NCBI GenBank assembly: GCA_026392155.1
Contig: JAPLCP010000134.1
Coordinates: 1 to 37,703 of the forward strand
From: Armatimonadota bacterium
GTDB taxonomy: Bacteria > Armatimonadota > Armatimonadia > Armatimonadales > Armatimonadaceae
Reading direction: 5' to 3'
Length of the DNA stretch: 37,703 bases
Positions 18,703-23,588 of the stretch are shown piece after piece. Below the pieces are notes generated by a model, which saw only the letters and a list, made by a program, of their open reading frames with translations, had not been told where the DNA came from and made no database searches. The position numbers and the translations under genes were made by a program. Numbering within the stretch: the stretch's first letter is position 1; every line of letters starts with the position of its first letter.

Positions 18703-20046
18703 TTATTTTTTTGGCGGCACTTCGCCACGCTTGCGGATTGAGAGAAACGCGCTGCCTTTGCTGTCGCGCTCCAGGCTCCAGGTCACATTGTAGCTGTCGC
18801 AGACCAGATTCAGGGCACTACTAAGGCTAACGCTCTCAAAGCGAAACGAGCGCTTGAGCGTGCTGGTCTCGGGCGAGAGCTCCAGCTGACGGTTTGTAGT
18901 GCGCAAAAGCGATTCAAGTGTAGTTCGAATGCTGGCACTTTCGACCTCCAACGAGACCATCTCTTTTAGGTAGGCGGTAGGTGGTGTCTGCACGAGGGGT
19001 GTGGCCTCACGAGGAAGCTGCTCCGCGATGGCATGGATGGTGTCGAGGGAGTCTCTCAGGACTTTGATGGGGCTTGGCGTGCTCTTGAGGCGCACAATGC
19101 GAATCAGTGTCCTGCCGCCTTGGGCCTCTGCCGTCCACCCGACGCCGAGCGACTGTGTGAGCATGTCCAGCGCGGTAGGAAGCGCTACCCCGTTGGCCTT
19201 GATCGTCACTTTCTGCAGCCGTAGCCCAGGGTAGCTCCACTCCGGATCGCGTGCCTGAAGTGCCTGAATGTCCGCGACGAGAAAGCTATTAGACTTCCCC
19301 AGAGAGAGCTTGAGGCTCGGGTCGAACTGGTGGTCTACGCGTGCATCCAGCAGCGCCATCAGCGCCCCGACCCCATTGCGATCTATCAGGTTCACATTGA
19401 CCCGAATCCCCTCCAGTTGCTTGCGCATTGCCTCAGAAACGGAAACGCTCTCCGGGTAAGACTGCGAACTCTCGGTAGGCAAGCCCGCCCAGGCCGATTC
19501 ATAGAGAAAGGACTCAGGAGCGGGAGTGGTTTTGAGTCGGACAAATCGAACGATTACCTCGCCGTTGTCCTCACGTGCCGTCCAACCGACCTTGGCGGAC
19601 GCTGCGATTTTGTCCAGAAAATCTAGAAATGTTAGCTCCGCTGGCTCGCATTGAACAGTCCCATGTTGGATTCCCATAGGAATACCAAGTACTACTCGCA
19701 TACCAAGATTGCTCAGTTGCTCGTTAAGGTTTTTAGGTGTCCTTATCAGCTTTAAGGGATAGAGAGAATCCTCGAACTCTATAAGATGCTCCAGGTTGAG
19801 GGTTTTATTGTTATTCAGAACTTGCTGATAACTGACCACACTGGAAATTCGTGGAATATCTTGTCTTACTTCGGGAATAGCGAGATTGTACTTTTTTAGT
19901 TTTGCGCGAAGCTCTGCGGGTACGGTGACTTTTTCAGGGTAGACGGTTTGGACACCTGTTTGGGAAGTGGATTCGTCGGCGCTCTGAGCAAGGGCAGCTA
20001 TCGTAGGGCAACTGAGTAGTGTCGCAAGCAGTATCAGGGTTTTCAT
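18703..20046 (-). CDS. Exported protein with three STN-like (secretin/TonB short N-terminal) repeats
   Basis: The 447-aa protein has a signal peptide (MKTLILLATLLSCPTIAALA). Three related units follow, each ending in a strand-turn-strand block with an aromatic: AASAKVGWTAREDNGEVIVR near 155, TQSLGVGWTAEAQGGRTLIR near 300, and VCDSYNVTWSLERDSKGSAF near 425. The first two blocks are followed by VRLK[TS]TP. This is the layout of STN domains, which in FecA-type receptors and secretins bind partner proteins. There is no beta-barrel here. The ATG overlaps the previous stop (ATGA). The position after an ECF sigma gene and a membrane protein suggests a periplasmic signalling partner. Homology is inferred from the pattern only. 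Confidence 0.6.
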   Translation of the reverse strand: MKTLILLATLLSCPTIAALAQSADESTSQTGVQTVYPEKVTVPAELRAKLKKYNLAIPEVRQDIPRISSVVSYQQVLNNNKTLNLEHLIEFEDSLYPLKLIRTPKNLNEQLSNLGMRVVLGIPMGIQHGTVQCEPAELTFLDFLDKIAASAKVGWTAREDNGEVIVRFVRLKTTPAPESFLYESAWAGLPTESSQSYPESVSVSEAMRKQLEGIRVNVNLIDRNGVGALMALLDARVDHQFDPSLKLSLGKSNSFLVADIQALQARDPEWSYPGLRLQKVTIKANGVALPTALDMLTQSLGVGWTAEAQGGRTLIRIVRLKSTPSPIKVLRDSLDTIHAIAEQLPREATPLVQTPPTAYLKEMVSLEVESASIRTTLESLLRTTNRQLELSPETSTLKRSFRFESVSLSSALNLVCDSYNVTWSLERDSKGSAFLSIRKRGEVPPKK

Positions 20047-20570
20047 GGGGTTTGTAGCTCCTGTCGCAGCTCATCGGGGGTGATGGGGCGGACGGCGATG
20101 ACGATCATTTCACCCGTCTCTCTCTCGTCTGGAAGAGAAATCTTTGGCTTTTCTTGTATGATCTGTCGTTTTTCTCTCGCGACATGCAATCTTCTGACCA
20201 CTACCAATGACCTCCGTCGGAAAATGCCTGGTTTTCTTAGTGCGATGTGTGATTTTTTGATAGTGACGTGTGGTTTTTCTCTGTCAATGTCAGATTTTCT
20301 TTGTCCGACGTCTGATTTTATAAAGGCAATGTCTGATTTTTTTATCGCGACATCTGATTTTTCTCTGACGACGCTTGTTTTTGAGCTTGCTATCCACCAT
20401 ATCCCCGCCAAAACCAGTGCCATCAGAGGCAAGACAAGTCCTCGTGTTGCTCTTTTTAGTGAACTTGGCACCGCGATAGTGCCCTCGCCCTCTAAATACT
20501 CTAAGCCCTTCAAGGGATCGGCAGCGCGGATCAGCTCTGTGAGGCGGCGCTCACGCTTAAAAAAGATCAT
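20043..20570 (-). CDS. One-pass membrane protein with eleven 7-residue repeats, putative anti-sigma partner
   Basis: The start at ATG 20570 (MIFFKRERRLTELIRAADPL) is chosen because AAGGAG lies 6 nt before it; it overlaps the sigma-factor stop by 14 bp. The 175-aa protein has a basic cytosolic N-terminus of about 40 aa and one membrane helix (GLVLPLMALVLAGIWWIASS, 44-63). Residues 68-144 are eleven consecutive exact heptads of the type [x][x][K/R]K[S/P][D/H][V/I] (VREKSDV, AIKKSDI, AFIKSDV, GQRKSDI...). The tail is short and acidic, with MIVIAVRPITPDELRQEL. Position and topology suit an anti-sigma factor, but the cytosolic part shows no zinc HxxxCxxC motif. The family is not recognised. Confidence 0.65.
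   Translation of the reverse strand: MIFFKRERRLTELIRAADPLKGLEYLEGEGTIAVPSSLKRATRGLVLPLMALVLAGIWWIASSKTSVVREKSDVAIKKSDIAFIKSDVGQRKSDIDREKPHVTIKKSHIALRKPGIFRRRSLVVVRRLHVAREKRQIIQEKPKISLPDERETGEMIVIAVRPITPDELRQELQTP
20139..20369 (-). repeat. Eleven tandem 21-bp coding repeats
   Basis: The period is exactly 21 bp across 231 bp. The best-kept units read, on the plus strand, as variants of TCTGATTTTNTNNNNNCGAC. The upstream (N-terminal) copies are most alike and the distal copies have diverged, which suggests expansion by slippage followed by drift. Confidence 0.85.
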
Positions 20571-21078
20571 GAGGAAGCTCCTTACGAAGGCGCTTTCGAG
20601 CGGCGAAGAGGCGCGAGAGGACGGTGCCAAGAGGCAGCTCCAGGGTCTCGGCGAGCTCGCGGCAAGAGAATCCTTCCCAGTAGTGCAGGATTAAGGGGGT
20701 GCGGAGGGTCTCCGGAAGCGCCTCGATGGCACGCTGCACCTGAGCCGCCGCATCGCGCTGGAGGGTAGTTGCCTCCGGGCCAGAGTCCGGGGAGAGGAGG
20801 GCACTATCGAGAAGCGTGGCCTCGCGCTTTTGTTGTCGCCATCGCAAAGCAGCATGTACCGTCAGCTTCGTCAGCCACGCCGGGCCAGACTCTAGCCGAC
20901 GGAGCCCTGCAAATGCCTGCGCCGCCCGAAGCCCCACTTCTTGTGTCAGATCATCGGCAGCGTCCGCACTCCCCGAGACACGTACTGCCAGCCGCCACAG
21001 CCGGGGCCGCTCCGCCTCCCAGAGCCGCGCAAAAACCGCGTCACTGCAAAGCGACGATCCCACGGGCTGACTCAGCAT
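20557..21078 (-). CDS. ECF-type RNA polymerase sigma factor
   Basis: This sigma-70 family protein is about 173 aa. Region 2 covers DAVFARLWEAERPRLWRLAV and DAADDLTQEVGLRAAQAFAG (the DDLTQEV motif is the -10 recognition helix region). A short linker follows. Region 4 is RAIEALPETLRTPLILHYWE, then GFSCRELAETLELPLGTVLS, then RLFAARKRLRKEL (helix-turn-helix). It directs transcription of an unknown regulon, probably including its own operon. The start is uncertain: ATG 21078 (MLSQPVGSS) is preferred; GTG 21087 and a TTG at 21129 are also possible. The 3' end overlaps the membrane repeat gene by 14 bp, the usual sigma/anti-sigma arrangement. Confidence 0.85.
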   Translation of the reverse strand: MLSQPVGSSLCSDAVFARLWEAERPRLWRLAVRVSGSADAADDLTQEVGLRAAQAFAGLRRLESGPAWLTKLTVHAALRWRQQKREATLLDSALLSPDSGPEATTLQRDAAAQVQRAIEALPETLRTPLILHYWEGFSCRELAETLELPLGTVLSRLFAARKRLRKELPHDLF

Positions 21079-21139: not shown

Positions 21140-21769
21140 TTATTCCCAGCCGCTCTCCCAGTCTGCACCGAGCGAGGCTTTGAGGCGCTCCCGATACGCA
21201 TTGGTCTTGACCTTGCAGCGCCAGTCGCCCTTAAGCCCTTTGCAGACCACGCCCTCAGCCACTCCGAACTTGCCTTTTCGCATATCGTCGGTGAACTGCC
21301 CGGTGAGCTTTCCCCGGTAGACGATGCGTGGGATCGGCAGGTGCCCGAAGGCTTTGACAAAGTTCTCGGGTGCGACAAACGCTTCTCTGGGAAGCGCCAG
21401 GTCAAAGAAGATCAGCCGCTTGGGTTCGTTAGTTTTATGCTGGCCCGCAAACGAGCCCTGACCGAGAAATTCACAAAACGCCGTGGCTTCGTCGGTTTCG
21501 TAGCCTTCGAGCACGTCGCCAAGTCCCGCCGCGAGCGTCGCCTGAAAGACTTCGGCGGCCTCGGCAAGCTCGGGGTGCGCGTTGGCAAACTCGGCGATTC
21601 CATGCTCCGTAAGATTAAACCGATCCCGGCGTGTCCCGAACGCATGCCAGCCAAACCCGCGCTCCCAGCAGAAGTGCAGGTTCGTGCCATCGAGTTTTTC
21701 AAAGGCAATGCAGCGCTCGCCAAGAACAAGAGCTTTCTCGCTGCTGGGCATCTTAGGGTAGTAAAGCAT
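21140..21769 (-). CDS. RNA ligase (nucleotidyltransferase family), ligase A
   Basis: The start is placed at ATG 21769 (MLYYPKMPSS), with GGAG 6 nt upstream, giving 209 aa. The covalent nucleotidyltransferase motifs are all visible: motif I FEKLDGTN with the AMP-accepting Lys25; a motif III-like FFDLALP preceded by CEFLGQGSFAGQH; motif IV GVAEGVVCKG; motif V WRCKVKTNAY. It should adenylate itself with ATP and seal RNA 5'-phosphate/3'-OH ends. At about 210 aa it is a bare catalytic domain, lacking the extra C-terminal domain of Rnl1/Rnl2. It overlaps the HD-Pnk gene by 17 bp and is the last gene of a three-gene repair operon. Confidence 0.85.
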   Translation of the reverse strand: MLYYPKMPSSEKALVLGERCIAFEKLDGTNLHFCWERGFGWHAFGTRRDRFNLTEHGIAEFANAHPELAEAAEVFQATLAAGLGDVLEGYETDEATAFCEFLGQGSFAGQHKTNEPKRLIFFDLALPREAFVAPENFVKAFGHLPIPRIVYRGKLTGQFTDDMRKGKFGVAEGVVCKGLKGDWRCKVKTNAYRERLKASLGADWESGWE

Positions 21770-22847
21770 ACTCAACTCCGTGGGCCTCAATAGTTGTGGG
21801 CACTTCCCAGCGATCCAGGTACTTGTGCATCACGGCTTCGGGGACGGCGGTGGTGCGGTTGCGATTCTGCGTAAAGAGCCGGGCATGGGGCGCTTCTTTG
21901 TAGATAATTTTAATGCGGAAGCCGTAGTCGGCAGCGAGGCCTAGCGGGCGAGCGCGTAGCTCGTGGCGCAGGTTGGTGGCGTTCCAGACAAAGTCTTGTT
22001 TCTGGCGCAAATACACCCGTGCCCGCTCCAGCGCCGCCATGGCCACGGGCTCCTGCGGGTCGGTGGGGGCGATTCCCAGCTCTTTGCGAAGCACGTCTAA
22101 GCTCACCACCGGCAAGTGCGAGAGATGATTCTGGATATACGTGTCCTTCCCCGAGCCCGGCAGACCGCTCATCAGGATCAGCTCGCCCTTGGTGTCGTCG
22201 TAGGCCTCATAATTTCGATCACGGCCCGGTGTGCGGAAGTAGACAAAGCGGCTGTGGCTGTTGGCGAAGGCGTAGGGGGTATCCCAGATACCAAGCTCTT
22301 TGCAAAGCTCGCCAAATAAACCAACACGCACCAGCGCATCTTCCGTGTTCGGCGCGATCCGGCCCCGCGTGTCGGCCTCCGCAAGGAGCGTCAGCCAGTC
22401 GCAGTGGGTGGTCTGGGCAATTGTGATTGCCGTGCGCTCGGGATCGTCGCTGTCCAAACAATAGCCAGGGCGCATGTGCCAGCGGACCAAAGCGCAGACT
22501 GCCTCACGCTCGGTGAAGTCAAACCCCTGCTCCCAGAGTAGCCGCCGTGCGATATACGCCCCGATCCGCGCGTGGCCGTTTGACGTAATCCGTCCGCTCT
22601 CTTCCTGCTTGGTTGTGGCGGGCTTGCCGCAGTCGTGGAGCAGCGCCGCCAGCCGCAGAATCCGCCGGGCAGACGCGTCCAAATCCACAAAGCGCGGGTC
22701 GGCTTCGAGTGCCTCGATCACCATGCGGGTATGCTTGGCCACATCGCCCTCGCCATGGTGGCGTGGGTCTTGCGGGCACGCCGTCATTGCCTGCCACCAG
22801 GGAGTCGCCTCTATTTTATTCCAATCGAGTCCGCTCTCCGCTACCAT
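21753..22847 (-). CDS. HD-Pnk: HD phosphohydrolase fused to polynucleotide 5'-kinase
   Basis: The 364-aa two-domain enzyme has an N-terminal HD phosphoesterase with His39, His71-Asp72 (ALLHDCGKP), His92, His124 and a late Asp159. The C-terminal P-loop kinase has LMSGLPGSGKDTYIQNH (225-241), a general-base/substrate motif LDVLRKELG (Asp251, Arg254), FVWNATNLRHELR (287-299) and an Arg-rich lid RNRTTAVPEAVMHKYLDRWE. This is the architecture of bacterial HD-Pnk, characterised from Runella, which removes 2',3'-cyclic or 3' phosphates and phosphorylates 5'-OH ends to prepare broken RNA or DNA for sealing. ATG 22847 overlaps the upstream ligase stop by 7 bp and the downstream ligase starts inside its end, so all three are coupled. 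Confidence 0.88.
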   Translation of the reverse strand: MVAESGLDWNKIEATPWWQAMTACPQDPRHHGEGDVAKHTRMVIEALEADPRFVDLDASARRILRLAALLHDCGKPATTKQEESGRITSNGHARIGAYIARRLLWEQGFDFTEREAVCALVRWHMRPGYCLDSDDPERTAITIAQTTHCDWLTLLAEADTRGRIAPNTEDALVRVGLFGELCKELGIWDTPYAFANSHSRFVYFRTPGRDRNYEAYDDTKGELILMSGLPGSGKDTYIQNHLSHLPVVSLDVLRKELGIAPTDPQEPVAMAALERARVYLRQKQDFVWNATNLRHELRARPLGLAADYGFRIKIIYKEAPHARLFTQNRNRTTAVPEAVMHKYLDRWEVPTTIEAHGVEYALLP

Positions 22848-23542
22848 AAATCCACCCCTTCGGCGAGCTGGTTGGGGACGAGTGGGCGGTCTTTCCAGTG
22901 CGATCCGGAGTCCAGAATCGTCTGCAGAAACCCGGCGCGTACAAATTTATAGCGCCCCTTCACCTCGCCGTTCTCTTCCCACTTTAAATACAGCCCCTCA
23001 CTGACACCGCCATCAGACTTGTACAGCGACGGCCCGACGAGCTTGGTGATATCGGTTAGTTTGCGAAAGATGCCCTCTTTGAGCACGGGCACGGAGACCA
23101 CGGGGCCACCCGCGAGAATTTCCCGGCGCTTTTCTGTCGAGAGGAAGCAATCGGTGTGCGTGTCTAAGATATCAAACTCGAAGAAGTAGTGCGGCAGGCG
23201 GTCGTAGAAAACGGTGTGGCAGGCATAGAGCCACTCGCCGTAGAGGATGTGGCGCGTTCCCAGCCGCTCCCAGAGCCAGCCTTGGTGGGTCTGGGCCCAG
23301 GGTTTTAGGAGCGCGAACTGCGCCTCGCCGGGGCCGCCCGTGAGGTAGTGCCCGCGACACTGGAGCTGAAGCGCCCCGCGCTCGTCAAACGAGATTCCCG
23401 TGTTCGCCCCATCGAGCTTCTCCTCCACCACGAGAAATTTCTCCCGTAGCAAGACAAACGGCATCCGGTCCGGGTCGTCGCCTTTTTGTAGGCCACTGCC
23501 TTCGAGGTGCTGGGTTCTCGGGTACTTTCGGATGCTGTCCAT
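22841..23542 (-). CDS. RNA ligase (PF09414-like), ligase B
   Basis: This 233-aa covalent nucleotidyltransferase has motif I VVEEKLDGANTGISF with Lys42, then an aromatic CRGHYLTGG, motif III/IIIa LYGEWLYACHTVFYD and YFFEFDILD, motif IV SEGLYLKWEENGEVKG and motif V YKFVRAGF. These fit RNA-ligase-family enzymes that seal nicked or broken RNA with ATP. It differs clearly from ligase A (GEWLYACHT block, longer motif IV loop), so the pair is not a recent duplication. It is the first gene of the repair operon. The ATG at 23542 is preceded by a TACGGT 7 nt upstream, and the divergent glycosyltransferase promoter lies in the same 46-bp gap. Confidence 0.85.
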   Translation of the reverse strand: MDSIRKYPRTQHLEGSGLQKGDDPDRMPFVLLREKFLVVEEKLDGANTGISFDERGALQLQCRGHYLTGGPGEAQFALLKPWAQTHQGWLWERLGTRHILYGEWLYACHTVFYDRLPHYFFEFDILDTHTDCFLSTEKRREILAGGPVVSVPVLKEGIFRKLTDITKLVGPSLYKSDGGVSEGLYLKWEENGEVKGRYKFVRAGFLQTILDSGSHWKDRPLVPNQLAEGVDLW

Positions 23543-23577
23543 AATGGCTACCGTATCGCTTTCGTGGCCGAGTGCGC

Positions 23578-23583
23578 TAAAAT
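23578..23583 (+). promoter_or_regulatory. -10 box deciding the GTG start of the glycosyltransferase
   Basis: TAAAAT ends 5 nt before GTG 23589. The long in-frame extension upstream (to 23400) lies antisense to RNA ligase B and is not needed. Confidence 0.4.
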
Positions 23584-23588
23584 GGCCC

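Follow-up and report, generated by a model that had tools for sequence, protein, structure and literature searches.

Three overlapping genes in a contig of an Armatimonadota bacterium can, with some confidence, be read as an RNA break-repair operon in which HD-Pnk would heal broken ends and two minimal ATP-dependent ligases would seal them, the second ligase being a later addition at the level of the genus. This reading draws on the genes present, their overlaps, their intact active sites, the predicted folds, the distribution and the signs of purifying selection, with the reactions carried over from characterised homologues. In the proposed mechanism the HD domain would hydrolyse 2',3'-cyclic phosphate or 3'-phosphate ends, the kinase domain would phosphorylate 5'-OH ends, and the ligases would join 3'-OH/5'-PO4 ends through enzyme-AMP and then RNA-AMP intermediates. 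Ligase 1 and HD-Pnk represent an old and widespread pair of the type formed by DRB0100 and DRB0098 of Deinococcus radiodurans, for which DRB0098 kinase activity and DRB0100 auto-adenylylation have been measured (PMC1997131). Ligase 2, whose family occurs chiefly in tRNA-rich huge phages, would probably broaden the range of sealed substrates, broken tRNAs being the likeliest.

Organisation of the locus

The window, that is, the whole stretch of 37,703 nucleotides analysed (contig JAPLCP010000134.1), carries the genes on the minus strand in the order ligase 1, HD-Pnk, ligase 2, each overlapping the next:

22841..23542 (23542-22841), minus strand: ligase 1, 233 amino acids, PF09414 (RNA_ligase), E=5e-34
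21753..22847 (22847-21753), minus strand: HD-Pnk, 364 amino acids, PF01966 and PF13671
21140..21769 (21769-21140), minus strand: ligase 2, 209 amino acids, PF09414 E=8e-7, phrog_548 E=3e-10
22841..22847, minus strand: 7-nt overlap of the ligase 1 stop with the HD-Pnk start, read from the sequence and also present in the sister species G001
21753..21769, minus strand: 17-nt overlap of the HD-Pnk end with the ligase 2 start, read from the sequence and also present in G001
23543..23588: 46-nt gap between the divergent ligase 1 and glycosyltransferase genes, read from the sequence

Only homology-based gene calls were used, since automatic calling around high-GC loci yielded antisense ORFs. Of the two candidate starts for ligase 2, ATG 21769 (209 amino acids) was preferred to TTG 21790 because the bacterial relatives start M-L-x-Y-P. 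An earlier note on this DNA had described three overlapping genes at 21140-23542 forming a complete healing-and-sealing set; its coordinates were right, with the ligase 2 start moved to the internal ATG, and the Pfam domains and motifs of such a set are present. Three genes with intact motifs and conserved overlaps lie far beyond chance.

The arrangement makes translational coupling probable at both overlaps. The operon promoter presumably lies in the 46-nt gap, where a search for a sigma-70 consensus upstream of the operon found none. The operon is flanked by the glycosyltransferase gene and, close behind its downstream end and on the same strand, by an ECF sigma factor gene. A PADLOC search returned no specific defence match, only a Cas3-type HD similarity. 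RtcB, also encoded in this genome, could act on part of these breaks as well.

In the sister species the order of the trio and both overlaps (7 and 17 nt) are identical, with amino-acid identities of 91, 86 and 84% for ligase 1, HD-Pnk and ligase 2, respectively. The corresponding dN/dS values were 0.08, 0.11 and 0.07. Values of 0.07-0.11, together with the retained order and overlaps, indicate that selection maintains all three genes, ligase 2 as much as the other two. The gene downstream of the trio in G001 does not match the ECF sigma factor gene of the window.

Beside that sigma factor gene, at 20043-20630 on the minus strand, lies a gene for a predicted membrane-anchored protein, in which 21/42-bp tandem repeats encode a run of heptad-like units (KSDVAIK...). 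A run of three tRNA genes occupies 841-1113 of the window, also on the minus strand.

Healing and sealing enzymes

The N-terminal half of HD-Pnk matches the HD phosphoesterase family (PF01966, residues 48-128, E=6e-10) and the C-terminal half a P-loop kinase (AAA_33, PF13671, residues 223-350, E=4e-23). Across 81 HD-Pnk sequences, H39, H71-D72, H92, H124 and D159 of the HD half are invariant, as are G228, G233-K234 (P-loop GLPGSGK), D251, R254, R298 and R331 of the kinase half. The protein thus has the HD and Pnk fusion of an HD-Pnk end-healing enzyme, with invariant metal ligands and kinase residues, and the earlier description of its active sites as intact is upheld. It is predicted to act as a 2',3'-phosphoesterase and a 5'-OH polynucleotide kinase. 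Which RNA ends HD-Pnk acts on is known from the Runella enzyme. HD-Pnk/ligase pairs like that of Runella slithyformis, reportedly described by Munir and Shuman, resemble the present operon in the HD and Pnk fusion accompanied by an ATP-dependent ligase gene, but no second ligase was found in the Runella operon (locus L058 of the GTDB sample). To our knowledge, the substrates on which HD-Pnk operons act in living bacteria are unsettled.

The bacterial Pnkp1-Rnl-Hen1 system likewise consists of separate healing and sealing proteins encoded together, which fix ribotoxin-cut tRNA (PMC4411300), but it differs in its kinase-phosphatase architecture, its Hen1 methyltransferase and its single ligase. 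No Hen1 methyltransferase gene is present in the operon described here, among either the three overlapping genes or the two flanking ones.

Both ligases belong to PF09414, with scores of 118 bits for ligase 1 and 29.7 bits for ligase 2 (cut-off 27), and PHROGs labels the ligase 2 family RNA ligase (phrog_548). Both have a KxDG motif I and intact motifs III, IIIa, IV and V. In ligase 1, K42, D44-G45, E103, E182-G183 and K199 are invariant among 33 family members; in ligase 2, motifs I (K25, D27-G28), III (E100), IIIa (D123), IV (E172-G173, K177) and V (K186, K188) are invariant among 43. Searches of PDB sequences with each ligase as a single query gave nothing relevant; matches were obtained instead with the ligase 1 profile and with both predicted folds. 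AlphaFold models (AF2), built from within-family alignments, reached pLDDT 94 for ligase 1 and 95 for ligase 2. The top PDB folds in Foldseek were NgrRnl, TbREL1 and T4 Rnl2 for ligase 1, and NgrRnl (Naegleria), T4 Rnl2 and archaeal Rnl for ligase 2. In the models the T4 Rnl2/TbREL1-type domain that follows the NTase domain is absent from both proteins: ligase 1 ends approximately 30 residues past motif V, ligase 2 with motif V and one helix. On their sequences and models, both are minimal, NTase-only RNA ligases of ATP type. Approximately 30 residues present before motif IV in the ligase 1 of G008 and G024 (at SLYKS-DGG) are missing in this genus.

Two other identities for ligase 2 were considered and rejected. 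The earlier note had named an NAD-dependent or DNA ligase as the outcome that would count against its reading, and on fold and domain content neither ligase is one. For both models DNA ligases rank behind RNA ligases in the PDB, LigA folds far below them; no Pfam match to a LigA-type domain (Ia, OB, zinc finger, HhH or BRCT) was found in either; and the 41 (ligase 1) and 24 (ligase 2) residues preceding the catalytic lysine leave no room for a Ia domain. Nor is ligase 2 a recent duplicate of ligase 1, since the profiles match weakly (hhalign probability 72%). The description of two clearly different RNA ligases with all nucleotidyltransferase motifs stands, and the two families are only distantly related.

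The operon might alternatively mend broken DNA, the role originally suggested for the radiation-induced operon of D. radiodurans. The Runella HD-Pnk is said by Munir and Shuman to work on DNA as well as RNA. DRB0098 phosphorylates 5'-OH DNA, and irradiation induces its operon; however, no DNA ligation was obtained with DRB0100 (PMC1997131). Both ligases fall in an RNA ligase family with RNA ligases as their best folds, no DNA-binding domain was found in the operon proteins, and a role in DNA repair is considered very improbable.

A more serious rival concerns the autonomy of ligase 1. As an NTase-only enzyme it may depend on a partner, which could be HD-Pnk, ligase 2 or a further protein; ligase 2 would then supply or activate the missing step, and the trio would work as one complex rather than with two ligases in parallel. 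This is unlikely, yet it has to be taken seriously because DRB0100 self-adenylylates without any ligation being seen, with or without DRB0098 and DRB0099 (PMC1997131), because T4 Rnl2 deprived of its C-terminal part shows strongly reduced self-adenylylation while retaining step 3 (PMC3514331), and because tRNA repair by Pnkp1-Rnl-Hen1 requires all three proteins (PMC4411300). The conserved overlaps of the trio also suggest coordinated production. Against this, both ligases have kept the full motif set, and in most genomes ligase 1 and HD-Pnk occur with no second PF09414 ligase nearby, so that ligase 2 is not a general requirement.

Distribution of the pair and of the trio

Scanning GTDB with the HD-Pnk alignment yielded 322 relatives, and the analysis used the best 80. 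By their titles these loci come from Actinomycetota, Bacteroidota, Myxococcota, Acidobacteriota, Pseudomonadota and others. In 74 of these best 80, the gene immediately upstream of HD-Pnk encodes a ligase 1 homologue; ligase 2 stands beside HD-Pnk in none of them. No second PF09414 ligase was found near the first in 47 of these genomes, searched whole for this Pfam family. Ligase 2 was likewise not found in 42 HD-Pnk genomes, by a search with no built-in positive control, nor in plasmids. Within the phylum, HD-Pnk occurs in five of 291 genomes and ligase 2 in four, two of which (G004 and G060) have ligase 2 and no HD-Pnk. In G004 (L041 4026-6480) the neighbours of ligase 2 are an APH-type kinase gene on one side and, on the other, a DUF433/DUF5615 (PIN-like) pair resembling a toxin-antitoxin module.

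Ligase 1 and HD-Pnk thus form a known and widespread pair, which is not new. Ligase 2 adjoins HD-Pnk solely in this genus, and the trio is therefore known only from it; ligase 2 is the unusual element, added at the genus level, and an RNA end-repair kit containing it is a real but modest variation. The expectation in the earlier note that the genes stay together in relatives holds across phyla for ligase 1 and HD-Pnk, but for ligase 2 only within the genus.

Three lineages were found to have two ligases near one HD-Pnk, and the second enzyme differs in each. The sister genus (G008 and G002, the G002 copy being split over two contigs) has the order ligase 1, Rnl2-like ligase, HD-Pnk, in which the additional gene is:

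L043 3368-4426, plus strand: sister-genus second ligase (L045/L218 in G002), Rnl2/REL1-like, between ligase 1 and HD-Pnk

The two operons are alike in holding two PF09414 ligases and one HD-Pnk in a single cluster. They differ in that the second ligase of the sister genus (352 amino acids, TbREL1 E=2e-14) is of Rnl2/REL1 type, has the C-terminal region and occupies the middle position. In D. radiodurans the ligase 1 HMM matched DR_RS15960/DRB0100 (E=5e-36), and DRB0098 is the HD-Pnk homologue (E=4e-60); both stand in one operon, as here, but a macro/PARG gene (DRB0099) separates them, in place of the 7-nt overlap. A different, characterised RNA ligase, DRB0094 (DraRnl), which DR_RS15930 is taken to be from position and annotation, lies 2.1 kb from HD-Pnk. 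Unlike ligase 2, it is on the opposite strand and has a long N-terminal region, and the ligase 2 profile gave no significant match to it.

With two-ligase loci in three lineages, the arrangement that the earlier note had called unusual has precedents in D. radiodurans and the sister genus; what remains particular to this genus is the trio that ligase 2 completes. This recurrence of non-orthologous second ligases is the most informative result of the analysis. It also bears on a further alternative, that ligase 2 is a captured gene serving as a mere backup of ligase 1, with no special substrate. Its presence beside HD-Pnk in one genus only, and its sporadic occurrence elsewhere in the phylum, would fit such a capture, but its low dN/dS and conserved start overlap would not, and the gain of a second ligase in the sister genus and the presence of another near the HD-Pnk of Deinococcus suggest a repeated benefit. 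Little credence is accordingly given to the backup role.

Relatives of ligase 2 in huge phages

Among phages, tblastn with ligase 2 matched huge phages, Lak phages and XacN1. At least 121 relatives are present in IMG/VR, the best with 40-46% identity and on contigs of up to 0.5 Mb; 80 of these loci were kept, many on contigs >200 kb. The phrog_548-type ligases of huge and jumbo phages belong to the same minimal family as ligase 2 (approximately 28-50% identity), but mostly lack a ligase 1-type gene or HD-Pnk nearby. In a tree the four bacterial copies cluster with nine viral ones (SH-aLRT 99), the root and the direction of transfer not being fixed by it. Ligase 2 probably came from the phage gene pool, and the operon suggests that huge phages and bacteria have exchanged RNA-repair genes.

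tRNA genes lie within approximately 6 kb of ligase 2 in 32 of 53 viral loci, and each of 20 viral records searched whole contains 19-68 of them. In 20 locus windows 73 tRNA genes were counted by hand, compared with approximately 31 expected from the mean density, an excess that is only suggestive as tRNA genes cluster. Since huge phages are tRNA-rich anyway and their tRNA genes clustered, the association argues only weakly for a tRNA substrate; the setting fits a role of ligase 2 in tRNA repair, without amounting to proof. Any link of the operon to ribotoxins or phages is indirect, running through these relatives.

For the favoured reading, that of a break-repair operon extended by ligase 2, a division of labour between the two ligases, which the earlier note illustrated with tRNA anticodon breaks versus other RNAs, is a plausible possibility of which the sequence itself gives no sign, and specialisation of co-occurring RNA ligases has already been proposed for jumbo phages (PMC7824862). 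A more specific version, that ligase 2 is a captured counter-defence tRNA-repair ligase of huge phages sealing breaks that ligase 1 cannot (e.g. in anticodon loops), the sister genus having filled that need with another ligase, is tentative and rather doubtful. With a DRB0100-type ligase coupled to a second one under strong purifying selection, the operon is well suited to testing whether ligase 1 depends on a partner and what each of the two enzymes seals.

Around some of the viral copies a 2H phosphoesterase-like gene or a gene for a T4 Rnl1-type ligase is found; in 11 huge-phage loci (L183, L184 and nine others) a small gene near ligase 2 weakly matches PF22547 (2H-phosphoesterase). Ligase 1- and ligase 2-type genes lie near each other in the huge phages LR756502 and LR745206 (L124 5980-8240 and L126 4158-6642), accompanied in both by a histidyl-tRNA-synthetase-like gene. 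A viral scan with HD-Pnk as sole query gave nothing, whereas tblastn gave one match, in a huge phage. In the huge phage LR756500 (L123 4868-7071) a ligase 1-type gene, whose product has an N-terminal extension resembling an HNH domain, is followed directly by a full HD-Pnk gene.
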